This document shows positions 6,506 to 42,912 of a DNA stretch of 64,000 bases, piece by piece (position 1 is the first letter of the stretch; each line of letters opens with the position of its first letter). Origin of the DNA: Ptychodera flava (taxonomy: Eukaryota; Hemichordata; Enteropneusta; Ptychoderidae); contig NW_027248278.1 of assembly GCF_041260155.1 (NCBI RefSeq), forward strand, positions 20,007,825-20,071,824, given 5' to 3'. The position numbers were made by a program, and so were the translations under genes. The notes beneath the pieces are model-generated. The model saw nothing but the letters and a program-made list of their open reading frames with translations, ran no database searches and was not told the DNA's origin.

Positions 6506-6507
6506 TG

Positions 6508-11084: not shown

Positions 11085-11617
11085 TCTTTATTACACAACC
11101 AAGTAGGTCAAAATGAGTCGCAGACAGTTAGTGATAAAGTTAAAATGGGTTGTATGAATCAAACAATAAAGTCAATTCATTATTATGATAGCTAAAACAG
11201 CGATACCGATCGGTGTCATAATAAACTACTAAGAAAAGCCAACGGATTGGCTCGAAGCGATTCTGTGGCGATTGCGCAAGACCCGGGCGCGATAGACAAG
11301 CACAGCAAAGCAGTGGATTAGTAAAATTGATAGGGGATATTAATAGGGCTATAGAAAATGAAACGAGAAATGTTGAGTCGTAAAAATTGAATTCAGAACA
11401 GAGAAATAGAAAGTAGCAAATGTTGGCATAGATTAGACATTAGTGTGTCACAATGATCCGTTTGTTTGTCACATATTCGTTTAACACTTATTGTACTATT
11501 TTTCAGAAGTGATTGATTAACAACTTCTGGTACCCCGGCGATGCCAGTTTTCAGACCGAAGAGACATTTTGTAGAACCCGCTGCACCCAAATTTAAATAT
11601 TAAGCCAAGCCCACATC

Positions 11618-11725
11618 GCTACGTCATAAAACTATGTCATTGCTATTTATAGAACTACCCTAACCGCACTTCGTGAAGACACAACTTGCCAGGTCTCTTG
11701 ACGGTCAGTGTTGAAATCACATACG
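11618..11725 (+). promoter_or_regulatory. Promoter and non-coding first exon of nuclease unit A
   Basis: ACGTCA (CRE/ATF half site) lies about 25 bases before TATTTATAG (11644-11652), giving a transcription start expected near 11675. About 50 bases later CATACG is followed by GTAATTATA, read as a splice donor at 11726. These signals recur in units B, C, D and, despite strong divergence elsewhere, in E. The first exon would be joined to the acceptor CTTCAG at 12970-12975. Start and splicing are inferred from conservation. Confidence 0.6.
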
Positions 11726-12988
11726 GTAATTATACCACTCATTTTTCATAAGACAACATGCCCCCTATTTGTGTGAAACTTTCGAGACATTCTTTAAAAC
11801 TCCGCCGGGGATATAAAGGCAGAAACTCACACAGCAGTATGTGCATCATGCGCGTCAAAGTGAATTGTACGAGTAAAATACCTTACGTTTGCTGACGGAC
11901 GAAGTGCGTGAGAAATTTGTTGCCCGCCATAATATTTTAAACATTGTTCAAACGATTTCTGCATCAAACATGATTCGCCCATGTCTACTGCTCAAAACTG
12001 CTTTTGTGCAACATCTACAGCATTTTAGAGTTCGCTAAATAGTCTCGGCCATGTTTTGCCTGCTATCCGGACAGCATGTGTGATTTCAAGAGACAAGTAT
12101 CTTTAACATATTATGCACAGTTATCGTCGTAGTAATGGCACTCTATGTAAGGATACTTTATCTTCTCCATATATGTATGGTTTAGAATTGTTTAGAATAA
12201 TAGTTCGGCAATATTTAGCTTTCAACCTGTTTCTTGCTCTGTTTACGTGATACATGTGTCAATTATTAACCTAGTATTACATTGTTACAACTGTTCATGT
12301 TTGGATAGTAAACTATGTCACCGCTAATTTTAATCGGGTTTTCCCCCGCACAATTCAAATCAACGTAGTTGTAATTGATATGAATGCTTACGCTGCATTG
12401 ACTTTAAGAATTCGTTGAATTTGCAATGAAAATATTTACACCAAGCTCTGCTGACCAAGTAATGTGTCGTAAATACTCATCAAAAACAGGTTAAAAGGAT
12501 AGCACGTCGGCTAAAAGGACACGTATGCTATCAGGAAGAATTATAGATCGTGAAACAGTTTTTATCCCATAACACGGAAAAGTACTTTCTTTCTCGGTTT
12601 TTTTCTCACCACGAAATCCGTAGAGCGGTATAAGATGGAGACTAGCTAAAATATATCAATTGTCATCAAATATTCTGCCATTTTGTTATTTAGCATGGCG
12701 TTGCCGAGAATCATGAAAGCATATATATTGGAACTTACATGACTACAATCAATTAAATCTGTATTTATAGGTATGAACAGGTACATTAACGCAATTCTCC
12801 AGGTGCATTCTACAAGGAAAATAAAGCTTTGATGCTATTCTTTTCATATATTTTTCAGTATATGTTTTACCGCTGATAAATTTCAGCATCAGATCACTAA
12901 CGTTTATAATACAATATTTGCTCACGTTGATCTACAGTCTCTATAACTTTAATATAATTGTTATTTAATCTTCAGAGTGAAGTTGAAT

Positions 12989-13052
12989 ATGGCGCCAACC
13001 TATCGACCAAGGCGTCGATCGACGGTCAATCGACGTGCTTCTTCCAAATCAG
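12989..13052 (+). CDS. Nuclease unit A, coding exon 2 (basic leader)
   Basis: ATG follows the acceptor CTTCAG by 13 bases. The exon codes 21 residues rich in Arg and Ser (MAPTYRPRRRST, then an RRASSKS end) and stops after the first base of a Gly codon, at the donor AG|GTAAGC. Copies in B, C and E have the same 64-base length and phase. The basic run could bind nucleic acid or act as a nuclear localisation signal; this is inference. It joins 13531-13880. Confidence 0.6.
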
Positions 13053-13530
13053 GTAAGCAATGAAGATTTTGCTATATGCTTTCAGTCTTATAAATGTTTT
13101 AGTTTTTTCTGTAAGTTACACAACTTCCGATTTGTTGAATCAAGTAAGACGAATTTTAATCGGATATGTTAGAAGTTCGACGAGGGATGTTAAGTATTTA
13201 GCCAAGTTAATCGTTACGACATACTTAATCTCGATTTTAGAATAGCACAATGGTAACTTTAAGAACACTTCAGATCTAACACTTAATTGACTTTACTGTA
13301 GACACGCCATTTTTTTCGCTAAGAGGTTTTCCTCTGAGTTTAAATTTCATTCGCTGCCTTTTTAAAATGAAGACCGTAAAATGAAGGTTTCAAGTTGAAC
13401 TCTAGGTAAACTTTGAAAATAAAGTCAAATAAAAATTAAGTCTTATCTTATTATATAACGCATCAATGGAAAGTTGATTTCATCGCTGAGCTGCCAATAC
13501 CCTGACGATTATTGACTCTCATTTCTGTAG

Positions 13531-13880
13531 GTATGAAGACGAGTGTGAGAAAAGGCAGAGCCTTAGAACAACGCTTTGATAATAGTCTATTACGACATTT
13601 GGCCAAGCGGTTATAAGATCTACGTCCAACCAAGGCTGGCTTCTGGGAAACGTCCGGACTTCATTCTACAAGACCCCTCTTTGAGACATATCCTATTGAA
13701 GCTAAAAATTACAATAACAAACACAAAATAGGCCTAGCTGATGTGAAGCAGGCATCTGCGTATAAGAAAGAAACTCGCTCTCCTGCGGCTATAATTATTT
13801 GCCCGCATGGGAGAGCCACAAAACAGGCATTGGCTCTTGCTCGAAAAAACAACGTATTATCGAAAAGTTTTAAAACTTAA
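13531..13880 (+). pseudogene. Nuclease unit A, coding exon 3 (frame disturbed)
   Basis: Acceptor TTTCTGTAG precedes GT ATG AAG, completing the Gly codon from exon 2. The PD-(D/E)XK domain is present with RPDF and EAKNY, but relative to unit C there is one extra base near 13603 and one missing base near 13685, so the middle is read out of frame. The tail reads VLSKSFKT and stop. This tail aligns without a gap to the end of divergent unit E (ASKSFK), which suggests that A keeps the ancestral C terminus. The two indels may be real damage or consensus errors; if errors, the gene would be intact at about 137 residues. Confidence 0.6.
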
Positions 13881-15645
13881 TTCAGTAATATTCCAACATA
13901 AGTCTCCCTGTAAACCCATTTATTCATGAAGTTGACATTTATTGGACAAAAGACAATTAGTAATTTTTTAAAACACTTCGCAATCACGAAGAATGCAATA
14001 TTTAAATGGATGGTCTTCATATAATACAAACAAAATAACAAAATGAACCCAAGATAGAAACGTGTGTCATTACTATGTACCGGATTGATATATTAAACTT
14101 ATTGAAAGAAGTACTTGCAATCAGGAGAGCGCTGGCTAAGCATGTGATTTAGACTGCAATATAAATGATACAAATACAGTAAATGGGTGTTAATAACAAG
14201 AAAATGTCAAGTGTCTCGCGTGAGGATGCATATAGCCCTAACGATATTGAGATTCATGAGGTAAATCGGATTCTGAGATGGAATCACTGTTGTGACTGTC
14301 TAGTGTAGGAGAAATGTTAAGGAATGCAAAAGTACGGAGAATCTAGACGATGATCTTTCTAACACGTTTTTCCTATAAAATTGATATATAGACATGTTAT
14401 GAGTTAGAAGTGTTTGTAAATCTTGCTTTCCAAGGTTTCATTATTACTTGTTATTATTGCGGACCTTAAAGCTATCATAACAATGTGTAAAGGAATATTC
14501 TTGTTGCTTTAAATCCTAGATAATGATTGTCAATTTAGTATATGAAAAATAAGTGAATAAAAATGCATCCATTAATGCCTTTTTATTTCCTCATACACTG
14601 AGAATGGTTTGATTGGAAACTCGTTTACCCTAGCACAGTGTTGTACTGCATTTATCAATTGCTCCTGCAGTCCCACTGTAATATGTCATCAAAAAACTAA
14701 AATTTAGAGGTGCAATACACTTCAGAACGACACTAGCTCTCTGTCCCAGCTGTATAACAGACTAAAACACAAAAAATAATTTATACGATTGTAATAAATA
14801 ATGTCTTTCAATCTTAATCGTAGACAATTTTACGACACAGCTGTACAGTTCACAATACTTGCTTCTTTCTAGTTTGTTTTCCATGACCTAGAGAGGTCAG
14901 TTTCTCTAAAATGTTCATATAAGAAAAAAACTGTACACATATAATAGCTTAAATACCTGAACCTCTGATAATCATTATAACATTCCCAATTTTTATTTGC
15001 ATTGAGCCATTGCATTCCACTTCACATCCGGGTCTGATGTCATTTGGATCTTCTTCATGCCAAATGCAACACTAAGCAAGGATCAGTGGAATGTGTAGCA
15101 ATTTTACACTATCCTTAGATTTACGATGTTTCAAACCTCTGAAATTTCAACCACTGTCACAGTTGTGTTCCCCTGAAAAGTATCTTGATTGGAAGGAAAA
15201 CAACTTGTCTTTATGCCAAATCATGACGAGTACAAAATATAATGCCGATTTTTATACTTGCTGAGAACAGGTGACAAAACCATTTGATTTAAAAAATAAT
15301 CATACGCCACTTCTGATAACTAAGTAGGGAAGTAGGGTATTTCACTTCTCTAATTATTTACTTCTCTCTCCCTTTACTTTGGTGAATTCTGAGTTCCTTA
15401 TTTTAGTCTTTACCTTTCCAGCTTGAGATGAAACTTTCCCTCTCCCTTCGAAATATTTCTTATCTTGTTGAAAAGTGCAAACTATAGTCAATTATCATTC
15501 TTGTGTAAGTAAATGAACATGTCATGACAAATTCTGTTTGTAAAAAGTGTAAATCGAGTTTCGAAATTGTGTCACGAGTACGCATAAATGAATATATACC
15601 TATCCGGAGCTAATACTGTGTAGCTGTAAGCTTAGCAAAAGTTAG

Positions 15646-18103: not shown

Positions 18104-18464
18104 TCCGTCCTTGAACAACCGTCGCATATTGCAACATGGGCCCCAAAACAATATGAACATAGATTTTCCACGTGTTTTCGGTGATACAACAGAGGTCGTG
18201 CTGACTTTTCGGGAGTGATCGCACTCGACAACTTATGAATAATATATGAGTAAAATAAAAACGTCATCTCATAATAATTTATAGCGACGCAAACCCTGCA
18301 GTAAAGCCAAGTCTGTGATTCCGGTGAAACTTTCCCTGTATAGCGTTCACCCGACGCATTGCGTTCACTCCCTCATTCACGGCGTTCAAATGAAAGCAAA
18401 TACAAATTATAGCGTTCACTCCACGCAAACATTCACAAATCACAGACTTGAACGAAATCTAAGC
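18104..18464. other. Spacer between element 1 and unit B
   Basis: No gene or repeat recognised. The minus-strand open frame crossing 17998-18267 runs over the end of the inserted element and is not credible. Confidence 0.4.
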
Positions 18465-19471
18465 AAAAGTAAGTGAAACTTGAATACTCGTGTGCATTGA
18501 GAACACAATCTTTATACTGTTTGTGCTCGCCTTGTGAACTTTTGACCTTTAGCGTATAAACACTTAATGCTATAGAGCCGTCAGGGTAAACGTTCCCAAC
18601 TCGTGCTGGACGCATCGGCAGTTCACGGGAAAATGGTTAAAAATACACATTGTCACAACAGAGTGGTCAAAATGAGTCGTAGACAGTTAGAGCTAAAGAA
18701 AACGATGGATCTAATTCGAAATAATTGGATTTTCATATCGTGCGAATTTCTCAAAAGAGTTAGTTGCCATATACACTGAAGCTAAGTGTTGTAATATAGC
18801 AAATTACTCATAAAACAAGTGTGTAATTTATGAAGAAAAGCAGATGAGATAATATTTATAGACTCAACCAAAATAACTTTACCATTCAATTATCCCAAAT
18901 AGTTCTAATGGTATTAAGGTTAAAGTGGGTTTAAATCAATCAAAGACTAAAAACGATAACTAGTTTAACAATACAACTACCAAAAAATAAAACTACAAAA
19001 AAGCCAACGGATTGGCTCGAAGTGGTTCTGGGCTATCGCGCAAGACTCGAGTGCGATCAACATGTCACGGCAAAGTATTGAATTGTAATATTGAATATGG
19101 AACATTAATAGGACTATAGAAAGTGACATGATACATGTTGAGATTGAAATTGAAATTAGAATAGAATGTTGAGATTTGAAATTGATTCAAAATAGAATGT
19201 TGAGATTTGAAATTGCATTCAGATAGAATTTTGAGTTGTAAAATAGAATTCAGAACAGCAAAATAGAAGTAGTAAATGTTGGCATGGATTAGACACTAGT
19301 GTGACACAATGATCCGTTTGTTTGTCACATATGCGTTTAACAATTACTGAACATTTTTCAGGAGGATTGATTCACAACTTCTTGTATCATGGCGATGCCA
19401 GTTTTCAGATCGAAGAGGCATTTTGGAGAACCCGCTGAAACCAAATTCATATATTAAGCCAAGCCTCCATC

Positions 19472-19580
19472 GCAATGTCATAGAACTATGTCACTGCTAT
19501 TTATAGAACTACCCTCAACCGCACTTCGTGAAGACACAGTTTGCAAGGTCTCTTGACGGTCAGTGTTGAAATCACATACG
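19472..19580 (+). promoter_or_regulatory. Promoter and non-coding first exon of nuclease unit B
   Basis: TATTTATAG at 19498-19506. The upstream half site is changed here (AATGTCATAGAAC in place of AACGTCATAGAAC), and the donor CATACG|GTAATTATA lies at 19581. Layout as in unit A. Confidence 0.55.
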
Positions 19581-20831
19581 GTAATTATACGCACTCCTTT
19601 TCATAAGACAACGTACACCGATTCGTGTAACACTTTCGAGATATTATGTATAACGCCGCTGGAGATACACAGCACAAATTCCCACAGTAATATCAATATG
19701 TGCATAATGAGCGTCAAAGTGAATTGTCACGAGTGAAATACCTTATGTTTGCTGAGGACGAAGTGCGTTAGAGATTTGTTGCCCGCCATAATATCTTAAA
19801 CATTGTTCAAACGATTTCTGCAGAAGACATGATTCGCCCATGGCTACTGCTCAAAATAATTGCTTTTAGTGCAACATCTACAGCAGTTTTAGAGTTCGCT
19901 TGATAGTCGTCAGCCATGTTTTGCCTGCTATACGTTAAGCATGTGGATTTCTAGAGACAGATATTTTTAACATATTATCATAGTTATCGTGTAGTAAACC
20001 CACGTCAATACATCAATTTCTCACATATATTATGGTTCAGAATTGTTTAAGAATAGTATTTCGGAAGTTTTAGCTTTCCGTACTGTTCCTTGCTCTGTTT
20101 ACGTGATATTATGTGTCAATTATTAACTTAGTCTGCCATTGTTACAACTGTTCAATGTTTGCATAGTAAACTATGTCATTGCTAATTTTAATCGGGGTTT
20201 TCCCCCGCACAATTCAAATCAACGTAGTTGTAATTGATATTAATGCTTACGCTGCATTGACTTTAAGAATTCGTTGAATTTGAAATTTCCAATGAAAAAT
20301 TTACAACCATGCTCTGCTGACCTTGTAATATGTCGTAAATACTCATCTAAAACAGGTTAAAAGGATAGCACGTCTGCCAAAGGACACGTAATGCTATAGA
20401 TCGTTAAACAGTTTTATCCAATAACACGGAAAATAGTACTTATTTTCTCGTTTTTGTTTCTCGCCACGAATCCGTAGAGCTTGTAACAGACGGAGACTAG
20501 CTCAAATATATTAATTGACATCAAATATTCTGCCATTTTGTTATTTAGCATGGCGTTGCCAAGATTCATGAAAGCATGACTACAATCTACATCATTAAAT
20601 CCTATTGTATAGGTATGAAGAGGTACATTCAGCCATTCTCAAGGTGCATTCTACAGGGATAATAAAGCTTTGATGATATTCTTTTCATATATTTTTCAGT
20701 ATATGCTTTACCGCTGAAAAAATTCAGCATCAGTTAAACTAACGCTTATAATACAATATTTGCTCACGTTGATCTCAATTCTCTTTAACATTGAATGTAA
20801 TTGTTATTTAGTCTTCAGAGTGAAGTTGAAT

Positions 20832-20895
20832 ATGGCGCCAACCTACCAACCAAGACGTCGATCGACTGTCAATCGACGTGCTTCTTCCAAATCAG
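20832..20895 (+). CDS. Nuclease unit B, coding exon 2 (basic leader)
   Basis: Same 64-base exon as in unit C, starting MAPTYQPRRRSTVNRR, with acceptor CTTCAG at 20813-20818 and donor at 20896. It joins 21376-21724. The open frame running past the donor into the intron is not coding. Confidence 0.6.
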
Positions 20896-21375
20896 GTAAG
20901 CAGACGAAAATTGTGCTATATGCTTTCAGTCTTAAAAATGTTTTAGTTTTTTCTGTAAGTTACACAACTTCCGATTTGTTGAATCAAGTAAGACGAATTC
21001 TTATCGGATATGTAAGAAGTTCGACGAGGGATGTTAAGTATTTAGCTAAGTTAATCGTTACGACATACTTAATCTCGATTTTAAAATAGCACATGGTAAC
21101 TTTAAAAACACTTCAGATCTAACACTTGATTGACTTTACTGTAGACACGCCATTTTTTGGCTGAGAGGTTTTCCTCTGAGTTTAAATTTCATTCGCTGCC
21201 TTTTTAAAATGAAGACCGTAAAATGAAGGTTTCAAGTTGAACTCTAGGTAAACTTTGAAAATAAAGTTCAAATAAAAAATTAAGTCTTATCTTATTATAT
21301 AACGCATCAATAGAAAGTTGATTTACATCGCTGAGCTGCCAATACCCTGACGATTATTGACTCTCATTTCTGTAG

Positions 21376-21724
21376 GTATGAAGACGAGTGTGAGAAAAGG
21401 CAGAGCCTTAGAACAACGCTTTGAAAATAGTCTATTACGACATTTGCCAAGCGGTTATAAGATCTACGTCCAACCAAGGCTGGCTTCTGGGAAACGTCCG
21501 GACTTCATTCTACAAGACCCCTCTTTGAGACGATATCCTATTGAAGCTAAAAATTACAATAACAAACACAAAATAGGCCTAGCTGATGTGAAGCACGCAC
21601 TGCGTATAAGAAAGAAACTCGCTCTCCTGCGGCTATAATTATTTGCCCGCATGGGAGAGCCACAAAACAGGCATTGGCTCTTGCTCGAAAAAACACGTAA
21701 TTATCGAAAAGTTTTAAAACTTAA
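21376..21724 (+). pseudogene. Nuclease unit B, coding exon 3 (frame lost after the active site)
   Basis: Starts at acceptor CTGTAG (21375). The frame is clean through GRALEQRF, RPDF and EAKNY, so the core acidic and lysine positions are kept. Near 21594-21602 it lacks one base relative to A and C (GCACGCACTGCG for GCAGGCATCTGCG), so it leaves frame just after DVK and runs to an early stop at 21638. A second small difference lies near the end. As read, it would lack the conserved Gln of motif IV and the last strands of the fold. Real decay and assembly error cannot be told apart here. Confidence 0.6.
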
Positions 21725-24620
21725 TTCAGTAATATTCCAACATAAGTCTCCCTGTAAACCTATTTATTCATGAAGTTGACATTTATTGGACAAAACACAA
21801 TTAGTAATTTTTAAAACACTTCGCAATAACGAAGAATGCAATATTTAAATGGATGGTCTTCATATAATACAAACAAAATAACAAAAATGAACCCAAGATA
21901 GAAACGTGTGTCATTACTAGGTACCGGATTGATATATTAAACTTATTGAAAGAAGTTCTTGCAATCAGGAGAGCGCCGGCTACAGCATGTAATTTAGACT
22001 GCAATTAAATGATACAAATACAGTAAATGGGTGTTAATAACAAGAAAATGTCAAGTGTTTCGCGTGAGGATGCATATAGGCCCTAACGATATTGAGATTC
22101 ATGAGGTAAATCGGATTCTGAGATGGAATCACTGTTGTGACTGTCTAGTGTAGGAGAAATGTTAAGGAATGCAAAAGTAAGGAGAATCTAGACGATAGTC
22201 TTTCTAACAGGTTTTTCCTATAAAATTGATATAATGACATGTTATTAAGTTAGAAGTGTTTGTATATCTTGCTTTCCAAGTTTCATTATTTACTTTTTAT
22301 TATTGCGGACCTTAAAGCTATCATAACAATGTGTAAAGGAATATTCTTGTTGCTTTAAATCCTAGATAATGATGTCAATTTAGGTATATGAAAGATAAGT
22401 GAATAAAAATGCATCCATTAATTCTTTTTATTTCCTCATACACTGAGAATGGTTTGATTTGAAACTCGTTTTCCCTAGTACAGTGTTGTACTGCATTTAT
22501 CAATTGCTCCTGCAGTCCCACTGTAATATGTCATCAGAATACTGAAATTCAGACGTGCGATACACTTCAGAACGACACTAGCTCCTTGTCCCAGCTGTAT
22601 AACAGACTAAAACACAAAAATAATTTATACGATTGTAATAAATAATGTTTTCAATCTTAATCGTAGACAATTGGACGACACAGCTTTACAACTAAATATC
22701 TAATAACGTATTTAAATCTTTATCGTAGACAATTGGGACGACACAGCTTTACAGTTCACAACACTTGTTCTTTCTAGTCTTGTTTTCCATGCCCTAGAGA
22801 GTTAGTTTCTCTAAAATGTTTATATAAGAAAAAAAACTGTATACATATAATAGCTAATGATACAAATACAGTAAATGGGTGTTAATAACAAGAAATAATA
22901 ATATAATAGCTTAAATACTGAACCTCTGATAATCATTATAACATTTCCCAAATTTCATTCTATTGAGCCATTACATTCCACTTCACATCCGGGTCTGACG
23001 TCATTGGATCTTCTTCATGCCAATTACAAACACTAAGCAAGGATCAGTGGAATGTGTAGCAATTTTACACTATCCTTAGATTTACGATGTTTCAAACCTC
23101 TGAATTTCAACCACTGTCACAGTTGTATTCCCCTGAAAAAATCTTGATTGCAAGGAAAAAACTTGTCTTTATGCCAAACCATGACGTGTACAAAATATAA
23201 TGCCGATTTTTACACTTGCTGAGAAGAGGTGACAAAAGCATTCGATTTAAAAAAAAATAAACATACGCCACTTCTGATAACTAAGTAGGGAAGTAGGGTA
23301 TTTCAATTCTCAAATTATTTACTTCTCTTCCCTTTACTTTGATGAATTCTGAGTTCCTTATTTTAGTCTTTACCTTTCCAGCTTGAGATGAAACTTTCCC
23401 TCTCCCTTCGAAATATTTCTTATCTTGTTGAAAAGTGCAAATATAGTCAAGTATCATTCTTTAATAAGTACGATGAACATGTCATGACAAATATTCTGTT
23501 TGTAAAAAGTGTAAATCGAGTTTCGAAATTGTGTCACGAGTACGCATAAATGAATATATAACTATCCGGATCTAAATACTGTGAAACTATAAGCTTATCA
23601 AAAATACGTAAAACTGGAATACTCGTGTGCATTGAGAAACACAATGTTTATACTTTTTGTGCTCGCCTTGTGAACGTTTGACCTTAACGTATCCACATTT
23701 AATGCGCTACAGAGCCTTCAGGATAAAAGTTCCCAACTCGAGCTGGACGCATCGGCAGCTCACGGGAAAATGGTTCAAAATACACATTGTCACAACCAAG
23801 GTGGTCAAAATGAGTCGTAGACAGTTAGTGCTAAAAAACACGATTGAAACTAATTCGAAATAATTGGATTTTCATATCGTGCGAATTTCTCAAAAGAGTT
23901 AGTTGCCATATACACTGAAGCTAAGTGTTGTAATATCGCAAATTACTCATAAAACAAGTGTGTAATTTAAAAGAAAAGCAGATGAGATAACATTTATAGA
24001 TTCAACCAAATTACTTTACCATTCAATTATCCACAATTAGTTCTAATGGTATTAAGGTAAAGTGGTTTATCAATCAAAGACTAAAACATAATTTATTATT
24101 ACGACACCTAAAACAACGATATGTATGGTTTCATAATAACCTACAAAAAAGCCAACGGATTGGCTCGAAGCAGTTCTGCGGCTATCGCGCAAGTCCCGAG
24201 CACGATCGACATTCACGGCAAAGCTTTGAGTTGTAATATTGAATATGGAATATTAATAGGGCTATAGAAAGTGAATGAGAAATGTTGAGTTGTAAATTGA
24301 ACTCAGAATAGAATGTTGAGATTTGAAATTGATTATGAATAGAATGTTGAGATTTGAAATTGATTCAGAAAGAATGTTCAGTTGTAAAATAAATTCAGAA
24401 CAGCAAAATAGAAAGTAGTAAATGTTGGCATGGATTAGACACTAGTGTGACACAATGATCCGTTTGTTTGTCACATATGCGTTTAACACTTACTGAACAA
24501 TTTTTCAGGAGGATTGATTCACAACTTCTGGTTACCATGGCGATGACAGTTTTCAGACCGAAGAGACATTTTGGAGAACCCGATGAACCCAAATTTAAAT
24601 ATTAAGCCAAGCCTCCATCG

Positions 24621-24726
24621 CAACGTCATAGAACTATGTCACTGCTATTTATAGAACTACCCCACCGCACTTCGTGAAGACACAGTTTGCAAGGTCTCTT
24701 GACGGTCAGTGTTGAAGTCACATACG
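24621..24726 (+). promoter_or_regulatory. Promoter and non-coding first exon of nuclease unit C
   Basis: AACGTCATAGAACTATGTCA leads into TATTTATAG (24646-24654). Expected start is near 24676, and donor CATACG|GTAATTATA is at 24727. The acceptor partner is CTTCAG ending at 26348, so the first intron is about 1.6 kb. Confidence 0.6.
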
Positions 24727-25551
24727 GTAATTATAGCACTCCTTTTCATAAGACAACGTACACCGATTCGTGTAACACTTTCGAGATATTATTTATAACG
24801 CCGCTGGAGATACACAAGCACAAATTCCCACAGTAATATCAATATGTGCATAATGAGCGTCAAAGTGAATTGTACGAGCGAAATACCTTGTGTTTGCTGA
24901 GGACGAAGTGCGTGAGAAAGTTGTTGCCCGCCATAATATCTTGAACATTGTTCAAACAATTTCTGCAAGGAGCGTGATTCGCCCATGGCCCATGGATACT
25001 GCTAAAAAATAATTGTTTTTGTGACAACATCTACAGCAGTTTAGAGTTCGCTTATTGCCGTCAGCCATGTTTTGCCTGCTATCCGGATAAGCATGTGGAT
25101 TTCAAGAGACAAGTATATTTAACATGTTATACACAGTCATCGTAGTAGTAAATGCACTCTATGTAAGGATACTTTATCTTCTCCATATATGTATGGTTTA
25201 GAATTGTTACTTAGAGAATGGTATATCGGCAATATTTAGCTTTCGACCTGTTTCTTGCTCTGTTTACGTGATATAATGTGTCAATTATTAACTTAGTATG
25301 CTATTGTTACAACTGTTGAATGTTTGGATATTAAACTATGTCACCGCTAATTTTAATCGGGGTTTTCCCCCGCACAATTCAAATCAACGTAGTTGTAATT
25401 GATATGAATGCTTACGCTGCATTGACTTTAAGAATTCGTTGAATTTGCAATGAAAAATTTACACCATGCTCTGCTGACCTAGTAATGTGTCAAATACCCA
25501 TCTAAAGCAGGTTAAAAGGATAACACTTCCGCCAAAGGACACGAATGCTAC

Positions 25552-25908
25552 TTAAGGTAGAAACGCGCCTCGGGGACAGAAATTCGGACCGTCAAATTTT
25601 ATCAATTTTCTTCTGACCTACCACTTGTTGAGGCTCATTTTGAAGCTCTTGGCGAAATAAATGGTTTTTTCGTCCTAGTTTTTCGAAAATCGAAATTTTA
25701 TTTTTTCCAAAGAGTTGACACAGGGATGGCGGCCATTTTGGATTTCAAATGTCGAAAATCGCAAGTATTTGTCTCTCTAGTACCAAAGTTTGCACGGTGA
25801 CCCCAGATTTTATTCTTGCTTTGGTAAGAGCATGGTTTGAAAGTTTCACTGAGGAAAGTTTCAGCAAAAGTTTAAGTCTTTCACTTTCGAGGTGCATATT
25901 ACCTTAAT
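25552..25908. mobile_element. MITE of about 355 bp in the first intron of unit C
   Basis: Ends read CTTAAGGTAG and TACCTTAA, an inverted pair. The same spot in units A and D is an empty site reading TGCTATCAGGAAG, so the insertion is clean and later than the unit duplications. A diverged relative lies at 9982-10338. Non-coding. Confidence 0.8.
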
Positions 25909-26361
25909 AGGAAGTTTTATAGATCGTGAAAAAGTTTTTATCCCATAACACGGAAATACTACTTATTTCTCGGTTTTTTCACTCCGAGAATCCAGTAGAG
26001 ATTACAGATGGAGACTAGCTCAAATATATTAATTGACATCAAATACTGCCATTTTGTTATTTAGCATGGCGTTGCCGGAATCATGAAAGCATTTATATGA
26101 GTAACTTACATGACTACAATCCATTAATTCTGTATTTATAGGTATGAAGAGGTACATTAACGCCATTCTCCAGGTGCATTCTACAAGGAAAATAAAGCTT
26201 TGATGCTATTCTTTTCATATATTTTCAGTATATGCTTTACCGCTGAAAAAAATTCAGCATCAGTTTAACTAACGTTTAAAATACAATATTTGCTCACGTT
26301 GATCGACATTCTCTTTAACATTGAATGTAATTGTTATTTAGTCTTCAGAGTGAAGTTGAAT

Positions 26362-26425
26362 ATGGCGCCAACCTACCAACCAAGACGTCGATCGACTGTC
26401 AATCGACGTGCTTCTTCCAAATCAG
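26362..26425 (+). CDS. Nuclease unit C, coding exon 2 (basic leader)
   Basis: ATG at 26362, 13 bases after the acceptor CTTCAG. Codes 21 residues, MAPTYQPRRRSTVNRR followed by ASSKS, plus the first base of Gly22, which is completed at 26904. I take this ATG and not the one at 26906, because exon length, phase and the RRRST motif are kept in divergent unit E. The leader is strongly basic. Confidence 0.65.
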
Positions 26426-27247: not shown

Positions 27248-29009
27248 AACTTAATTCAGTAATATTCCAACATAAGTCTCCCTGTAAACCATTTATTCAT
27301 GAAGTTGACATTTATTGGACAAAAGACAATTAGTAATTTTTAAAACACTTCGCAATCACGAAGAATGAAATATTTAAATAGATGGTCTTCATATAATACA
27401 AACAAAATAACAAAAATGAACCCAAGATAGAAACGTGTGTCATTACTAGGTACCGGATTGATATATTAAACTTATTGAAAGAAGTACTTGCAATCAGGAG
27501 AGCGCTGGCTAGAGCATGTGATTTAGACTGCAATATAAATGATACAAATACAGTAAATGGGTTTAATAACAAGAAAATGTCAAGTGTTTCGCGTGAGGAT
27601 GCATATAGCTCTAACGATATTGAGATTCATGAGGTAAATCGGATTCTGAGATGGAATCACTGTTGTGACTGTCTAGTGTAGGAGAAATGTTAGGAATGCA
27701 AAACTACGGAGAATCTAGATGATAATCTTTCTAACAATTTTTTTCCTGTAAAATTGATATATGACATGTTATTGAGTTAGAAGTGTTTGTAAATCTTGCT
27801 TTCCAAGGTTTCATTATTTACTTGTTATTATTGCGGACCTTATAAGCTATCATAACAATGTGTAAAGGAATATTCTTGTTGCTTTAAATCCTAGATAATG
27901 ATTGTCAATTTAGTATATGAAAAATAAGTGAATAAAATGCATCCATTAATGCCTTTTTATTTCCTCATACACTGAGAATGGTTTGATTTGAAACTCGTTT
28001 TCCCTAGCACAGTGTTGTACTGCATTTATCAATTGCTCCTGCAGTCCCACTGTAATATGTCATCAGAATACTAAATTCAGAGGTGCAATACACTTCAGAA
28101 CGACACTAGCTCTCTGTCCCAGCTGTATAACAGACTAAAACACAAAAAATAATTTATACGATTGTAATAAATAATGTCTGTCAATCTTAATCGTAGACAA
28201 TTTTACGACACAGCTTTACAGTTCACAATACTTCTTCTTTCTAGTTTAGTTTCCATGACCTAGAGAGGTTAGTTTCTCTAAAATGTTCATATAAGAAAAA
28301 AACTGTACACATATATAGCTTAAATACCTGAACCTCTGATAATCATTATAACATTTCCCAAATTTTATTTGCATTGAGCCATTGCATTCCACTTCACATC
28401 CGGGTCTGACGTCATTTGGATCTTCTTCATGCCAAATGCAAACACTAAGCAAGGATCAGTGGAATGTGTAGCAATTTTACACTATCCTTAGATTTACGAT
28501 GTTTCAAACCTCTGAAATTTCAACCACTGTCACAGTTGTATTCCCCTGAAAAGTATCTTGATTGGAAAGAAAACAACTTGTCTTTATGCCAAATCATGAC
28601 GAGTACAAAATATAATGCCGATTTTTACACTTGCTGAGAACAGGTGACAAAACCATTTGATTTAAAAAATAAACATACGCCACTTCTGATAACTAAGTAG
28701 GGAAGTAGGGTATTTCACTTCTCTAATTATTTACTTCTCTTCCCTTTACTTTGGTGAATTCTGAGTTCCTTATTTTAGTCTTTACCTTTCCAGCTTGAGA
28801 TGAAACTTTCCCTCTCCCTTCGAAATATTTCTTATCTTGTTGAAAAGTGCAAACTATAGTCAATTATCATTCTTGTGTAAGTACAATGAACATGTCATGA
28901 CAAATTCTGTTTGTAAAAAGTGTAAATCGAGTTTCGAAATTGTGTCACGAGTACGCATAAATGAATATATAACTATCCGGATCTAAAAACTGTGAAACTA
29001 TAAGCTTAT

Positions 29010-31385
29010 CAAAAGTACGTAATACTGGAATACTCGAGTGCATTGAGAAACACAATCTTTATACTGTTTGTGCTCGCCTTGTGAACGTTTGACCTTAACG
29101 TATCCACATTTAATGCGCTACAGAGCCTTCAGGATAAAAGTTCCCAACTCGAGCTGGACGCATCGGCAGCTCACGGGAAAATGGTTCAAAATACACATTG
29201 TCACAACCAAGGTGGTCAAAATGAGTCGTAGACAGTTAGTGCTAAAGAAACACGATTGGACTAATTCGAATAATTGGATTTTCATATCGTGCGAATTTCT
29301 CAAAAGAGTTAGTTGCCATATACACTGAAGCTAAGTGTTGTAATATCGCAAATTACTCATAAAACAAGTGTGTAATTTAAAAAGAAAGGCAGATGAGATA
29401 ACATTTATAGATTCAACCAAAATACTTTAGCATTCAATTATCCACAATTAGTTCTAATGTATTAAGGTTAAAGTGGTTAAATCAATCAAAGACAAAAACA
29501 TAATTTATTATTACGACACCTAAAACAACGATATGATAGGTTTTATAATAAACTACAAAAAAAAGCCAACGGATTGGCTCGAAGCTAGTTCTGCGGCTAT
29601 CGCGCAAGACCCGAGCGCGATCGACATTCCACGGCAAAGCCGTTGAGTTGTAAAATTGAATAGGAATATTAATAGGGCTATAGAACGTGAAATGAGACAT
29701 GTTGAGTTGTAAATTGAACTCAGAATAGAATGTTGAGATTTGAAATTGAATTATGAACAGAATGTTGAGATTTGAAATTGAATTCAGAAATAGAATGTTG
29801 AGATTTGAAATTGAATTCAGAATAGAATGTTGACTTGTAAAATAGAATTCAGAACAGGAAAATAGAAAGTAGTAAATGTTGGCATGGATTCGACACTAGT
29901 GTGACACAATGATCCGTTTGTTTGTCACATATTCGTTTAACACTTACTGAACAATTTTTCAGGAGGATTGATTTACAACTTCTGGTACCACGGCGATGCC
30001 AGTTTTCAGACTGAGAGACATTTTGGAGAACCCGCTGAACCCAATTCAAATATTAAGCCAAGCCTCCATCGCAACGTCATAGAACTATGTCACTGCTATT
30101 TATAGAACTACCCTCACCGCACTTCGTGAAGACACAGATTTGCAAGGTCTCTTGACGGTCAGTGTTGAAATCACATACGGTAATTATAGCACTCCTTTTC
30201 ATAAGACAACGTACCCCGATTCGTGAAAACTTTCGAGATATTCTTTATAACGCCGCTGGAGATATACGGCAGAAATTCCCACAGTAATATCAATATGTGC
30301 ATAATGAGCGTCAAAGTGAATTGTCACGAGTGAATACCTTATGTTTGCTGAGGACGAAGTGCGTGAGAGAATTTGTTGCCCGCCATAATATCTTGAACAT
30401 TGTTCAAACAATTTCTGCAAGGAGCGTGATTCGCCCATGGCCCATGGATACTGCTAAAAAATAATTGCTTTTGTGCAACATCATCTACAGCATTTAGAGT
30501 TCGCTTAATTGCCGTCAGCCATGTTTTGCCTGCTATCCGGATAGCATGTGGATTTCAACAGACAAGTATATTTAACATTTATACACAGTCATCGTAGTAG
30601 TAAATGCACTTTATGTAAGGATACTTTATCTTCTCCATATATGTATGGTTTAGAATTGTTATCTTAGAGAATGGAATATCGGCAATATTAGGTTTCAACC
30701 TGTTTCTTGCTCTGTTTACGTGATATAACGTGTCAATTATTAACTAAGTATGCTATTGTTGCAACTGTTCAATGTTTGGATATTAAACTATGTCACCGCT
30801 AATTTTAATCGGGGTTTTCCCCCGCACAATTCAAATCAACGTAGTTGTAATTGATATGAATGCTTACGCTGCATTGACTTTAAGAATTCGTTGAATTTGC
30901 AATGAAAAATTTACACCATGCTCTGCTGACCAAGTAATATGTCGTAATACTCATCAAAACAGGTTAAAAGGATAGCACGTCTGCCAAAGGAACGTATGCT
31001 ATCAGGAAGAATTATAGATCGTGAAACAGTTTTTATCCCATAACACGGAAAAAGTACTTACTTTCTTCTCGGTTTTTTTTCTCGCCACGAATTCCGTAGA
31101 GCTTGTAATAGACGGAGACTAGCTCAAATATATTAATTGACATCAAATATTCTGCCATTTTGTTATTTAGCATGGCGTTGCCGAGAATCATGAAAGCATA
31201 TATATTGGAACTTACATGACTACAATCAATTAAATCTGTATTTATAGGTATGAACAGGTACATTAACGCCATTCTCCAGGTGCATTCTACAGGGATAATA
31301 AAGCTTCGATGCTGTTCTTTTCATATATTTTTCAGTATATGCTTACCGTGGAAAATTCCAGCATCAGATCACTAACGTTTATACG
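29010..31385 (+). repeat. Nuclease gene unit D, truncated
   Basis: Follows unit C directly and matches it closely up to ATCACTAACGTTTA near 31385, just before where exon 2 would start. After this the sequence is unrelated. The promoter, first exon and most of intron 1 remain; both coding exons are gone. Confidence 0.85.
30070..30179 (+). promoter_or_regulatory. Promoter and non-coding first exon of unit D, without coding exons
   Basis: AACGTCATAGAAC, TATTTATAG (30097-30105) and donor CATACG|GTAATTATA (30180) are all kept. If active, it would make a transcript with no nuclease, or one spliced to some downstream acceptor. Confidence 0.55.
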
Positions 31386-35884: not shown

Positions 35885-36407
35885 TTCTGTGTTTCGGAAA
35901 GGAAACCTAGTTTCAGGAAAGTATGCAATAACATTACACTAGTCTTATTAAAGTTATTATTTACTCAGAAGGGCAGTGATAACAAATGATACATATGCAA
36001 GTTCAAGTTTATTACATTTATGGTTGATTTTATTACATTCATGGTTAATTTGTTTATTACATTTGGGTTGCGGGTTGTTACATTAATGGTTGACTATTTT
36101 ATTACATTTGTGGTTGATTTTATTACAATTGTGGTTGATATTACATTTGTGGAGATTATTACATTTGTGGAGGTTACACGAGGGGGACTCCCCTTTCGAG
36201 CGCTCCACCTTCGCCCTGTTGCGCATTCTACCCTCTCCTACTATCACATATCTCGGTGAAAAGCTTCCTTACCGTCCATTTATATTTGAAAATAATTGAT
36301 TAACAACTGCCGGTACCATGGTGCCAGGCTGACGCCAAATTTCAGACCGTAAGAGAAATTCGAGAGAACCTGCTGCATCTCGATTGAATATTAAGTCCCG
36401 CCCACAT

Positions 36408-36536
36408 CGCAACGTCATAGAACTAGGTCACTCTTATTTATAGAAATACCCTCAGGGCAGGTGACGCAGCACAAATTACCAGAAGCAGAACTGAGGCAAC
36501 ATCGCTATTATATTTCAGTCTACATTATAACATAAG
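36408..36536 (+). promoter_or_regulatory. Promoter and non-coding first exon of nuclease unit E
   Basis: AACGTCATAGAACTAGGTCA leads into TATTTATAG (36435-36443), almost identical to A-D although the DNA downstream differs. The first exon body is unlike the others, yet the donor context ATAAG|GTAATTATACCACT (36537) is conserved. Such local conservation in a diverged copy argues that these sites work. Confidence 0.65.
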
Positions 36537-37223
36537 GTAATTATACCACTAATTAGTTCACAGGACAACAATATTGCCTCGATTTACGTACTACTTTGAG
36601 GGACTTCTTTAATACGTCGTCGTCTTGGGGAACATACGTGTACACAGCTAGTAATTTCTGTATGTCCAACATGCCTATCTCTAGACGCAAACTGTATCAG
36701 TGAAGTACGAAGGATTTGTCGCCCGATATAGCATTTCCAGGCATTAGTACAACACGATCCCGCATGGTAGATGATTTGCCGAGCTATCGAACAAAGAACA
36801 ATTACGTTTATGCAAATGTACATCGGCATTTCAGTGTCGGATTAAATAGTTGTCAACAAGGTCTTGTGTCGCACCTCTTGCCCGCTGTCCGAACGACAAT
36901 CGGGACTTCAGGAGAAAATATCTTTATATTTATACACACACAGTCTCATAGTGACTGCACCGTATGTCAGGATAACCTTTTCCTATATATGTATCGTTCA
37001 TAACTGTTTGATCAATAGTATTTTGAAAATGTATTTGCCTTAAATTTGTCCTATGTGCTGGGTACTGGTAATACTCAGTTGTCAATTATTAACTTAGCGT
37101 ACCATTGTTACAATAGTTCAAAGTTTGAATAGTGAACGATGTCATCGCTAATTTTAGCCGGGGATTCCCCTGCACAAGGCAGATCAATGTATTTTGTGAT
37201 GGATCGGAATGCTAGCGTTGCAT

Positions 37224-38729
37224 TAAGGGGAGAAACATTTGATTTTTGTCGGAAGGTATGGAGGAAATGGGTATGGGAGCATTTTTTTTTCCTGTCACAG
37301 TGACAGCATTTTTTTTTTCTACTGTCAGAGCTGCATCAATTTTTTTTTTTCAAATGGAGTAGCAGTGCAATATTTTTTCATTTTGTCATCAAGTTTGTAA
37401 TGCGTTGTATATAAGGGAGCCGTTATTATTTACGGCCTGAAACTCCAGAAAATTTCAAGTGAACCCCCCCCCCCCTCGCCAACCATGATTAATTTGAGTA
37501 CCTCCCCTCTCTAACTCTGAAATTTTGATTGATCGCCCCACTTAGAATTAATACAACATGTATTTGTAAAATTTACAAAATACAGCAACAGTAAAGACCT
37601 TTGAAATCCTGATGTACTCTGCTGAGACTATCACAGTTATCTCATATGGTTCAAAAAGGTGAACCCATCAAAATGAAATTGAAGTCACAATAAAAAAAAG
37701 ATAGAAAAGCTCACGCAGTATTAACCATATAGTATATTGTTTAATTTGGGATGGGTATTATGACAGGTTTTCACTAGAATATCTGACTAGGCAGATTTTG
37801 AAAGTACATGGGGAGAAAAACCCGAGAGGCTAGGGGGAAAGTGTCAGAGGGGCTTTCCCGTATCTTGCATGGAAAGGTTAAGATATTGATGTGTGCAATG
37901 GTGCAGTCTGGTGCTATCTGAGAGGTGTTTTTTTAATTTTTTTTACTAAGTGAACTGTTAGAAACCCTCAAGGGGAGAGCACGAGAGGGGTTTCCCCCTC
38001 TATTGGAAATTTTGAGAAATTGATGTGTTTAATGGTGCAATCTGAGAGGAGTTTCAATTTATTCGCCAAAATAAATTGAGTAACCCGTCCCCCTTCTTCC
38101 TCTCCACATTTTGAGTAACGCCCCCTGAAGTTTTCAATTTTTTAGTGACCCTCTCCCTTGTATTTCATTACATTTGTTGTTCCTCATTTTTCATTGTCAA
38201 CTTGTTCATCTTTCCTAATATATTTATATTGAGAGAATAATATATTGGTTTTAACACTAGTTTATTGAATCCTGTCTTGTGTTTTAAATTTTCACAATTT
38301 ACAGAAGTCAACTAGTCCCCTTTAGATAGTGCCTATGCCATTGAGATATTGCAACAGAAATCCTAAAATATGATTTCTTGGGTCAGAAAGGGAAGGAAAA
38401 CATTGAGTGCACTGAGGTTTAAGTGACCTATGTAGTGCATGCTTATATCATAAGTGCTGGGGAATAAAAAAGATTTGCTTGTGGTAAAAACATTTGCGCC
38501 GCCTATGGCTGGCGCGCCGGCAAAGAATACATGAGAAATATGGTTTCCAAATTTTGCTAATTTCTGGTGCATTGTGACAATTTTATTTTTAATTTTCTGT
38601 CTGTTATGACAATTTTTTTCTTCAGGCCATGACAGGATCAATTTTTTTTCTTCTATCTCACCTGTTGACAATTTTTTTCCTAAAAATCCTCCATATCACA
38701 CCCCCAGATATCAAATGGTTCTCCCCTTA
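37224..38729. mobile_element. TIR DNA element in intron 1 of unit E
   Basis: Left end TAAGGGGAGAAACATTTGAT and right end ATCAAATGGTTCTCCCCTTA are inverted copies. About 1.5 kb, with C- or G-rich and T-rich blocks (for example the C-run near 37467) and no transposase frame. The internal AAGGGAGCCGTTATTATTTA (37416) resembles the end of the element at 40522, suggesting nesting or a shared family. Confidence 0.65.
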
Positions 38730-38892
38730 CTTAAATGATAGATTCGTAAAATCACTAAATGCAAGTTTTGGCTAAACTGGTAATTATAAGATGTGGTAAA
38801 TACTCATTGTTTGAAGACAGTTTGATGGGATAACACATTTGCTGAAGGAAACGTATGCTATCAGGAAGAATAACCGACCATTCAAAAAATTT

Positions 38893-38958
38893 AGCTACTA
38901 TAGACTATAGTCTATAGAATCTATTGGGATTGGTATCCGTCTGGAGTGTAGTATTGTC

Positions 38959-38990
<32 letters not shown>

Positions 38991-40058
38991 TGTATGTATG
39001 TATGTATGTATGTATGTATGTATGTATGTATGTATGTATGTATGTATGTATGTATGTATGTATGTATGTATGTATGTATGTATGTATGTATGTATGTATG
39101 TATGTATGTATGTATATGGCGTCCGTCCACTCAAAAGAACCGCAGTACTTACTGATTTGATATTTGTTGTGTTGATGAAAAATATGATTATGAGAAACTT
39201 CTTTATTTAATTTTTTGATATTGTTGAAAATATGCAAATTAGGCGTTTTTGGTAAAAAAACTTCTTCTTCATAACAGTTGGTCAGACAGGTTTGATATTT
39301 GGTATACAGGTCTCTAAGGATAACCCAAGTTAGATTTGTTCAAATTGTGATGAAATATGGAAATCTGTATTTTTAAGGAATTTTTTGTCATTTTTGGTCA
39401 AAACTTTATTTCATCAAGAACCACTCATCTGACAGCTTTGATATTTAGTATACAGGTTCCTACAGATGAACTAAATATGATATATTGAATATATGATGAA
39501 ATCTGCAATTTTGTATTTTTGGCGCAATTTTTGCCATTTTTGGTCGAAAAATGTGTTTCACAAAAACGACTTGTCTGATGCTTTGATATTTGGTATACAG
39601 GTTCCTAGGGTTGTCTTAGTGTGATATATTAAAATTTGATGAAATCTTCATTTTTGTATTTTGGGGTCATTTTTTGCCATTTTGGTCAAAATATTTGTTA
39701 CTCAAAATTACTCATCTGATAGCTTTGATATTTGGTATATAGGTTTCCTAGGCTTAATCTTAATGTAATATATTGAAATTATGATGAAATCATCAATTTG
39801 TATTTTTGCAGCTAATTTTGCCATTTTTGTCAATGAGCTATCAAAGATATCCACCTTCTTCATCAATACATGTGTCACAAAAAGTTATTCTCTACATAAC
39901 ACAGCAGACGAGCTCTGTCAACTGTTGGGTCGCTTGTTTTTTCAAAACCGCTTGTCAGACAGCTTTAATATTTGGTTTACAGGTCCTAGGATGACCTTAG
40001 TGAGATAATTTCATACAGTCAGGAAATACTTAATTTTGTATCCATGTTTATAGTAGCT
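38893..40058 (+). mobile_element. Helentron/pearl-like non-autonomous element 3
   Basis: Starts AGCTACTATAG, running into the palindrome TATAGACTATAGTCTATA, then GGGATTGG and a long TATG microsatellite. A tandem core follows, with TTTGATATTTGGTATACAGG words at 39291, 39437, 39582, 39724 and 39964 (spacings 146, 145, 142, 240). It ends TATAGTAGCT, the exact complement of the start. Same plan as elements 1 and 2, with a different core. Confidence 0.6.
38961..39116. repeat. TATG microsatellite, about 39 copies
   Basis: Uninterrupted tetranucleotide run inside element 3. Open frames reading YVCM or YIHT repeats on either strand are artefacts. Confidence 0.95.
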
Positions 40059-40393
40059 TCAGGACTTTTGCCCTATGTTTTTATTATACAGCAGAAATAT
40101 TACTTAGTTTCTCAGGATATTTATATTTCTGTCATGAAAACGCAAGTGCGTGTAACAGATGAAAGGGAGTCGGATATATACTGTCTTGTCTTTACATATC
40201 AAGTTGCTGCATTTACATCGATGCAAGTCTTCCAGTACATTCTACAAGGATAAGAAAAATTCACAGGAACATTACTCATGTATTTTTCAATATATGCCTT
40301 ATAAAGAAAGATTCCAGCATCAGATCACCAAAGTAAACAGACAAAATTTAGCTAAAGTCAATAAACAATTTGAGCTTCAGATTGAAGAGCAAG

Positions 40394-40457
40394 ATGGCGC
40401 GAACCTGTGGATTCAGGCGTCGCTCGACAGGTAAGCGATGCATTTCTATCAAATCTG
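40394..40457 (+). CDS. Nuclease unit E, coding exon 2 (basic leader)
   Basis: ATG at 40394 follows acceptor GAGCTTCAG (40380) by 13 bases, as in A-C. Codes MARTCGFRRRSTGKRC then ISIKS plus one base: 21 codons and 64 bases, the same length and phase as in A-C. The donor is CTG|GTAAGC at 40458. A second possible donor at 40431 (CAG|GTAAGC) is also in phase and would remove nine residues; the alignment favours 40458. RRRST is shared with the other copies. Confidence 0.65.
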
Positions 40458-40521
40458 GTAAGCATATTAATTAATATATCAAATTAATATTTCTATGTAC
40501 ACTTTCAAGCGAAAAATATTG

Positions 40522-41832
40522 AGAGGGAGCCTTAAGTTATTACAGGGGGTGGGCCGGGGGTAAACCGCGCACACCTGTACTGTAAAACGTGAACCCTCTC
40601 TCCCCCATCCTCCTGTCTACATGTGACCCTCCCCCAACCATTGCAGTATTCTCCCCAGGAATAACTGAAACAGTATCAGCTAATTTAATAACAATTGGTT
40701 CAATTGCTATGTAGTTAGGACAAATTAGGGAGGGGAGGGGGTTGTTTTGGAGGGACAGTCGCAATTTATCACGCAAGCATTTTTGAATAGATATGGTATT
40801 TCATACATTTGAGTGAGGGTCACCATATTCTTGTGCAACTACAAGAAGGCAAGATGTGGCTGATACAGTGCTTCATCCAAAAATATCACATCATAATTCG
40901 TTGAGTCTATCAGGCAAATTATTGACAATTTTCCACTACAAAACATGCTATATCTGTATATTTTATATGTTTGATAATGTATTTAAATGTACTTGCTTGA
41001 ATTGGGAAGTAAAATGTGCATTTGTGTACAAGAAATTGATTTCTGAATTTCATCTAAAAAGTTGGTTCACTATCCATGGTGTCTATGATGAAACTATGAA
41101 TATTTTTTTTTCAAAATCAAAACTAGGTAAACTTGTGCATTGTGTACACTTGATTATTGGTATTAAAGTTCATGATTAAACTAGAGTGTTTCAAGTCTAT
41201 GGTTGTGCAAGAAATTTGATTTTGGAATTTCACCGAAATGTCGATTTTCTATCATGGCAGTCTATGATGAACTATGAATAATGTTTTTCGAATACAAAAT
41301 TAGGTAAATCTGTGCATTTATGTATGCTGCAGTGATTATTGATATTAATGTCTTGATTAGACTAGAGTGGTTATAAGTCTATGGTTGTGCAAAAAATTGA
41401 TTTTGGAATTTCACTGAAATGTTGATTACTGTACATGGGTCTATGAAGACTAATATATCTTTGACAATCTTGTTTGACTTGATAATTGATATACCTTTTC
41501 CACCTGTTGCATATGTTTCTGTCTCTTGTCCTTTCATCAGTTTTAACTGTTCAAGCGTTTAATGTGCGATACCACTGCATCTTCTTTGCTTAATTGTGAA
41601 ATGTATTGATAATGTAGATGTATTTGAAAGAATCGGTGTATTTCGTTGGTGATTTCCTATTCAGGAATATAACAACAGAAATCAAAGGTTTGGCCATAAA
41701 ATCAGCTTCTGTCAAATTCCCTCCCCCAAGATAGTTTTATAAAAAATGAACCTCCCCCTTGAACACTTGTATAAAAGGTGACCCCCAATTGCCCCGGCTC
41801 ACCCCCCCCTGTAATTTCTGAAGGCTCCCTTA
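40522..41832. mobile_element. TIR DNA element in intron 2 of unit E
   Basis: Left end AGGGAGCCTTAAGTTATTAC with GGGGGTGGGCCGGGG, and right end with CCCCGGCTCACCCCCC and GTAATTTCTGAAGGCTCCCT, are inverted copies. About 1.3 kb, with internal ACTAGAGTG...AGTCTATGGTTGTGCAA repeats (41180-41400) and no transposase frame. It separates the two coding exons of unit E, so it must be spliced out if the gene works. Confidence 0.7.
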
Positions 41833-42565
41833 CTTTTACCAGTTCGATATTTTATACCTGATATGATACTGGCATTTCGTCAAAGTTGCGTGGGAATAAG
41901 TGATCAATTCATTATTCATTATTAAATTGCTTGTCTCTATAAACAATAATGCATGAGTTAATATGAGTTTGTGTAAGAGCAAGCTGTCCTGTGGATCTTC
42001 CAAAGTTTGTCTCTGAATTTTTTAAAACCTCCTTAAACAACTTTTATGCTACAAACCTCCAGAGCAGTGAATTTAACCCTAGTTGATTTCTTTAAATTGT
42101 GTTCCAAAAAGAAATAAGCAAGATATAAAAGACACACTCTTTGAAAGAGCCCTGTGCTTGCACCCAGCAAGTTTTGAGTCAAATATTTTGAAGTATTGAG
42201 ACAAAACATAAGGAAACTGATTTTTGAAAGGTTATGCAAATTACCTGTCACGTGGATAGTTATGTAAAAAATGGTGACACTGTGGTTACCAACATTTATC
42301 CCTATATTTAGACTTTCGAAAATGTATGATTTATGGGGTTCTGAGCTTATTAATCACCAGGGAATTGTTACATAAAAAGGTAAATTTCTTGTCTTGGAAC
42401 ATTAAGTGAAACCGTACAATGGAGTTTTCAAGTGGTACTCTCAGTACAGTTTTGAAAACGAAGATCGGAAAAAGATTAAATCATATCCTATCAAGCATTA
42501 ACTTGAAGTTGATTTCCTCGCTGAGCTACTCAGAGCCTTACAATCATATACTTTCTTTTCCGAAG

Positions 42566-42912
42566 AGATGAAGAGGATACAGAAGAAAGGCAGAGCGTAT
42601 GAGCAACGAGTTGGAAGACACTTGCAACGAAATTTATCAAGAGGCCATAAGATCTACGAACAGCAAACACTGACTTCTAGAAAGCGTCCGGACTTTGTGA
42701 TAGAAAACCGTAGAGCTAGGCGATGTATTATTGAAGCGAAAAATTACAAAAGCAAGCGGAAAATAAGCAAACGTGATGTGAAGCAAGTAAAAACATATAT
42801 GAAAGAAACTAGATCTTGTGGGGGCATAATTGCTACCCGCATGGAAGATGCACGAAAGGGGCATCGGCTGCAGCTCGAAAAAGTAACATATGCTTCAAAA
42901 AGTTTTAAATAA
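42566..42912 (+). CDS. Nuclease unit E, coding exon 3: diverged PD-(D/E)XK nuclease domain
   Basis: Acceptor TTCCGAAG precedes AG ATG AAG, completing a Glu codon. With exon 2 it gives 136 residues, uninterrupted. By eye about half the residues equal unit C, with no gap over residues 1-130. Conserved positions: KGRAYEQR with E34, KRPDF with D64, IEAKNY with E78 and K80, DVKQ with Q95, Y99, KETRS at 101-105 and II at 109-110. The surface between them changed freely (for example VENRRARRC-type changes at 66-75), while the active site did not; this is what purifying selection on catalysis gives. It ends SKSFK like unit A. No partner gene is visible nearby. Confidence 0.7.

Follow-up and report, generated by a model that had tools for sequence, protein, structure and literature searches.

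What do the five related units (A to E) of a 64,000-nucleotide stretch of the Ptychodera flava genome (contig NW_027248278.1, positions 20,007,825 to 20,071,824; the whole stretch is called the window here) encode, and do they still encode it? The answer that we favor, with modest assurance, is a genuine protein-coding family: a basic protein of ~137 residues, which has a 21-22-residue Arg/Ser leader and, on the other side of a phase-1 intron, a single minimal PD-(D/E)XK (restriction-endonuclease-like) domain, and which may serve as a lineage-specific nuclear nuclease. As the preliminary description had proposed, the copies have a spliced architecture in common: basic leader exon, phase-1 intron, and nuclease exon are found in units A, B, C, and E, the only units in which tblastn located the two exons. 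Their splice-site positions are shared. The exons are the following.

12989..13052, + strand: coding part of the leader exon of unit A, MAPTYRPRRRSTVNRRASSKS plus G, donor GTAAGC
20832..20895, + strand: coding part of the leader exon of unit B, MAPTYQPRRRSTVNRRASSKS, donor GTAAGC
26362..26425, + strand: coding part of the leader exon of unit C, MAPTYQPRRRSTVNRRASSKS, donor GTAAGT
40394..40457, + strand: coding part of the leader exon of unit E, MARTCGFRRRSTGKRCISIKS plus G, donor GTAAGC
13531..13880, + strand: nuclease exon of unit A, first Met at 13533; three one-base indels and no substitution relative to C
21376..21725 (end approximate), + strand: nuclease exon of unit B, first Met at 21378; two one-base indels and four substitutions relative to C
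26904..27247, + strand: nuclease exon of unit C, first Met at 26906; open as assembled
42566..42912, + strand: nuclease exon of unit E, first Met at 42568; open as assembled, the last ~25 residues in another frame than those of C

The intron is ~0.48 kb long in A-C versus 2.1 kb in E, and only its last ~165 bases aligned between A-C and E by self-BLAST. The encoded protein is strongly basic (net charge +16 over the 108-residue domain of C and +6 for its leader), which fits DNA binding.

The nuclease exon carries the PD-(D/E)XK pattern, D...(D/E)-x-K, together with an N-terminal E and a later Q. The residues E12, D42, E56-A-K58, and Q73 (nuclease exon numbering) are identical in C and E; in the spliced protein they are E34, D64, E78, K80, and Q95, the residues named beforehand. 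Against Pfam, the core of E scored 22.7 bits with NERD (PF08378; residues 7-69), narrowly passing the cut-off of 22.1, whereas the whole open reading frame (ORF) of E reached 21.6 and C stayed under at 17.7-17.8. Nine of the 12 families listed for the E core are restriction or nuclease families, several restriction families falling just under their cut-offs, and shuffled sequences gave no comparable result. Mrr_cat (PF04471) remained under its 21-bit cut-off with 20.5 (E ORF) and 19.2 (E core) and was not listed for C, for which the best Pfam E-value came from Tox-REase-9 (PF15650), also under its cut-off (at most 22.7 vs 27.3). The best PADLOC match was the NERD+UvrD model (E 1.7e-4). AlphaFold models of C and E showed the order H-E-E-E-H-E in both (predicted local distance difference test score, pLDDT, 65 and 60), matching the alpha-beta-beta-beta-alpha-beta core of the PD-(D/E)XK fold. 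The best fold matches all had this fold and included NucS/EndoMS, the Mrr-like AF1548, and Hjc, with NucS/EndoMS among the nearest solved folds for C and Hjc among those for E. The PD-(D/E)XK assignment is supported by the NERD score of the E core and by these fold matches, and the nearness to Mrr and Hjc types that had been noticed by eye reappears, in the predicted models, as the likeness to AF1548 and Hjc.

Selection on the two open copies was estimated from nonsynonymous (dN) and synonymous (dS) substitution. In the core, where the frame is undoubted, 47 of the 88 residues are the same in C and E, with dN 0.34, dS 0.75, and dN/dS 0.46 (bootstrap 0.23-0.86; 1 or more in 0.65% of replicates). 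When the leader and the tail in the frame of C were included, 71 of 127 codons specified the same residue and dN/dS was 0.50 (0.30-0.80). The observed amino-acid identity of 49/103 was matched in 0.02% of 5000 random placements of the same substitutions, indicating that the conservation between C and E is more than chance; a stop codon was acquired in 98.8% of 5000 random-substitution trials. The quick divergence described earlier is partly borne out: at a dN/dS of ~0.46-0.50 the family is loosely held, yet it is constrained. Judged by profile, predicted model, and this loose constraint together, it is a minimal PD-(D/E)XK family, both real and new.

Several known systems lie close to the family. 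The nearest PADLOC model is a NERD+UvrD protein, whereas the P. flava domain has no partner domain and only a spliced leader in front of it. It likewise differs from the Mrr-type restriction endonuclease (PF04471; AF1548, PDB 1y88) in having no accompanying DNA-recognition domain. For NucS/EndoMS (PDB 2vld, 5gke), only the catalytic C-terminal domain was matched, namely part 129-230 of the 228-residue 2vld chain, with no match at the sequence level; for archaeal Hjc (PDB 1gef, 2wiw), the likeness lies in the predicted fold only, and no Pfam or PDB sequence match was listed. The Tox-REase domains of polymorphic toxin systems occur in a secretion or immunity context that the P. flava family does not have. 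According to the signatures set out by Zhang et al. (2012, PMC3482391), the family agrees with Tox-REase-1 and -6 in its pattern of E, D, ExK, and Q, and the Tox-REase-10 signature includes ExKNY, as does the family (EAKNY). By the same signatures, Tox-REase-9 (GxxxH, ELKP, YxxE) differs from EAKNY, and the family, with E, D, ExKNY, and Q, is not Tox-REase-8, which has QxK.

We then consider where such a domain could have come from. The gene may be a captured one, of Tox-REase, NERD, or Mrr type, taken from a bacterium, a phage, or the effector of an endosymbiont, that gained its intron and leader later; this account concerns origin only, is compatible with the protein-coding family that we favor, and seems to us quite plausible, if short of probable. 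The profile neighbors are mainly prokaryotic families. A precedent for animal acquisition of such domains exists, as the section of Zhang et al. (2012, PMC3482391) on Tox-REase-8 describes its repeated transfer to animals, with occurrences in arthropods and Trichoplax. However, the searches of prokaryotes and viruses revealed no relative: none of 68 pattern stretches in prokaryote genome contigs and none of 67 in viral contigs was confirmed, and the phages yielded no relative. DNA patterns built on RPDF and EAK(NY) listed five viral candidates, but none of them had the score of a relative; the best reached E 0.076 across a stretch of 21 residues. A search of 5.8 billion proteins, animals included, gave 17 candidates with none at E 0.01, and a second gave 22 with none at E 10, both within the limits set by a word-based prefilter and by missing annotations. 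In a control, a reverse-transcriptase ORF of the window matched 353 proteins at E 1e-10, animals among them; the matches listed name Patella, Apostichopus, Holothuria, Paramuricea, and several fishes, showing that the proteins searched do include those of animals. NCBIfam returned one weak match, of the E unit to GxxExxY (17.8 vs 35 bits), PHROGs one match for E at E 0.12, and the PDB sequences listed only McrC (E 0.18). Searches confined to open-licence PMC papers turned up no account of an animal family like this. Within the reach of word-based searches, the family looks lineage-restricted or unannotated.

Two observations weigh against the protein-coding family. First, ~160 bp of adjoining intron (26737-26903 in C, 42404-42565 in E; 73% alike) shows a degree of conservation equal to that of the nuclease exon: nucleotide identity between C and E is 69% in the nuclease exon, 67% in the leader, and 73% of 161 positions in the intron tail, compared with 65% 5' of the ATG and 55% 3' of the stop. 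The coding constraint is accordingly best described, from the alignments, as real yet loose, with parts of the noncoding DNA conserved as well. Second, although neither C nor E is interrupted in the assembly, the two differ in reading frame over the last ~25 residues. The tail frame of C (PHGRATKQALALARKNNV) has its counterpart in another frame of E (12/18 residues, dN/dS 0.71), and that of E (RMEDARKGHRLQLEKVTYASKSFK) has one in C (14/24 residues, dN/dS 0.62). The proposal that the tail of E had shifted and that the frame of C was original was withdrawn, since both frames are conserved alike. The frame of C is mildly favored by unit A, whose tail is open in that frame (ending SKSFKT where C ends VFIEKF), and by higher model confidence over residues 91-110 (pLDDT 77-85 in C, 35-44 in E); taking the frame of E as the older needs fewer indels. 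The conserved intron tail and the disagreement of frames lower our confidence in the coding interpretation and add weight to decay.

Decay would mean that only pseudogenes are present here, derived from a nuclease gene whose working copy is elsewhere or lost. Besides the two observations above, A and B are frameshifted as assembled and D has lost its exons. In contrast, dN/dS lies below 1 for the open copies C and E, and the indels fit consensus errors. The nuclease exons of A and C differ by three one-base indels and no substitution over 346 aligned bases, and those of B and C by two one-base indels and four substitutions. Between A and C, the density of one-base indels is 0.8-1.3% in the 5' part, the intron, the nuclease exon, and the 3' part, where substitutions range from 0 to 10%, and 0/63 in the leader; it is 0.4-2.0% across all three A/B/C pairs without the leader and 0.6-1.6% in five further duplicated pairs (including C/D) at 2.3-10.1% substitution. 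An indel rate independent of divergence is expected from consensus errors rather than from decay. An unrelated EGF-repeat gene elsewhere in the window (60336-61343, minus strand; 353 residues) has a cysteine pattern that is carried on in a different frame beyond residue ~194, resembling an assembly indel and fitting such errors; its best Pfam match, Teneurin EGF, lies below its cut-off, and EGF_2 lies above. Assembly (consensus) errors are thus the probable source of the frameshifts in A and B, so the statement that these units once encoded the protein is doubtful, and we regard decay of the whole cluster as rather unlikely.

The copies are arranged as follows.

11085..15642, + strand: unit A, ~4.6 kb, without the 5' head seen in B-D (self-BLAST, junction alignment)
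18464..23603, + strand: unit B (self-BLAST)
23599..29016, + strand: unit C, with an extra 0.36 kb piece at 25550-25909 (self-BLAST)
29010..31383, + strand: unit D, truncated, with neither leader nor nuclease exon (self-BLAST, tblastn)
36295..42912, + strand: unit E, a divergent copy outside the contiguous array

Self-comparison showed units A-D head to tail, in agreement with the tandem duplication first proposed, A and B being separated by a 2.8 kb insertion. All five units are related, as had been stated; however, D, which terminates directly upstream of the leader exon position, has neither exon, and E lies ~5 kb past D. Unequal crossing-over is the favored mode of duplication; it would account for the three exon-bearing units that are nearly identical and for the older copy beside them.

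Several repeats lie in and around the units. The insertion (15643-18463) holds a ~149 bp tandem array at 16363-17224. The 0.36 kb piece of unit C has a second copy, 79% alike, at 9979-10340 upstream of unit A and is absent from the other units; unit E contains a perfect (TATG)n microsatellite of 155 bp (38961-39115). A dispersed repeat has copies, in segments 82-92% alike, at 4013-9540 and 46900-52463, the latter interrupted by reverse-transcriptase fragments at ~48768-50730. The ORF at 44943-45353 encodes a charged, coiled-coil-like protein that by eye is gag-like (retroelement) and has no Pfam match. The window has a G+C content of 36.6%, no Rfam family at the gathering threshold, and no tRNA found; one Rfam match (E 1.1, far under its cut-off) fell in the upstream part of unit E.

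Upstream of the leader exon, two conserved blocks recur in all units.

11512..11661, + strand: block 1 of unit A, containing TATTTATAG; counterparts near 19391-19517, 24551-24662, 29983-30116, and 36295-36454
12257..12399, + strand: block 2 of unit A, with a kB-like site one G short; counterparts at 20114-20258, 25279-25423, 30731-30875, and 37080-37224

The sequence TATTTATAG is present in block 1 of all five units. The kB-like site of block 2 reads GGGGTTTTCCCC in B, C, and D and GGGGATTCCCC in E, with one G fewer in A. The blocks of E are 77-80% like those of A-D over 113-159 aligned bases (block 1) and 145-146 aligned bases (block 2), and in a comparison of E with the other units block 2 is better preserved than the coding exon. 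The kB-like motifs fit the NF-kB consensus, GGGRNNYYCC, a motif picked after the sequence had been seen; it has 18 matches in the window versus 2.7 expected, overlapping and both-strand matches counted. With four of five units matching and the motif chosen post hoc, the site in block 2 is a hint only. Block 2 was also considered as a structured RNA and rejected, as 1 of 46 predicted pairs was changed on both sides and the covariation term was unfavorable.

How might the protein work? Enzymes with the PD-(D/E)XK fold, most of them dimers, hydrolyze their substrate with the help of Mg2+ that the acidic residues and the lysine coordinate. If the genes are transcribed and spliced as drawn, E12, D42, E56, and K58 would hold Mg2+ at the edge of the beta-sheet with the assistance of Q73, and the protein, probably as a dimer, would cut double-stranded or branched DNA, while the leader would serve nuclear import or DNA binding. 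The cellular role would most likely be that of a lineage-specific nuclear nuclease, with defense or genome surveillance slightly ahead of repair; we lean toward defense with modest confidence. A housekeeping or germline repair nuclease that happens to be duplicated, with mismatches or junctions as its substrates and thus functionally comparable to NucS/EndoMS or Hjc, would agree with the nearest folds. However, nearness of fold is no proof of function, only the C-terminal domain of NucS was matched, and the finding of no relative in other annotated animals would be unusual for a repair enzyme; this role appears improbable. It is chiefly in bacteria and archaea that stand-alone restriction-type nucleases are known. 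The more specific proposal of an animal counterpart of bacterial Mrr-type restriction, limited to one lineage, minimal, nuclear, tandemly expanding, possibly under NF-kB control, and cutting foreign or mobile DNA in its own cells, is a speculative one that we consider distinctly unlikely.

A mobile-element origin of the protein, for instance as the nuclease of a DNA transposon or retroelement, is disfavored and very unlikely on the sequence features seen: the region is rich in repeats, and PD-(D/E)XK nucleases occur in some mobile elements, but the copies share a single locus in head-to-tail order. The preliminary description saw no mobile-element machinery in the unit, and no feature of such an element turned up within unit C or across the junctions: there were no terminal inverted repeats, the one inverted pair listed for unit C being 18 nt at 83%, and no element boundary at the junctions, the other ORFs of the units not having been searched for homology.

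If the nuclease family is what we propose, an intron-bearing, tandemly amplified animal family for which no annotated relative was found would add a branch to the superfamily and be a candidate for an enzyme that cuts foreign DNA directly inside animal cells. Should the frameshifts indeed be assembly errors, the case would also show how unpolished assemblies can disguise working multicopy genes as pseudogenes and hide them from protein databases.

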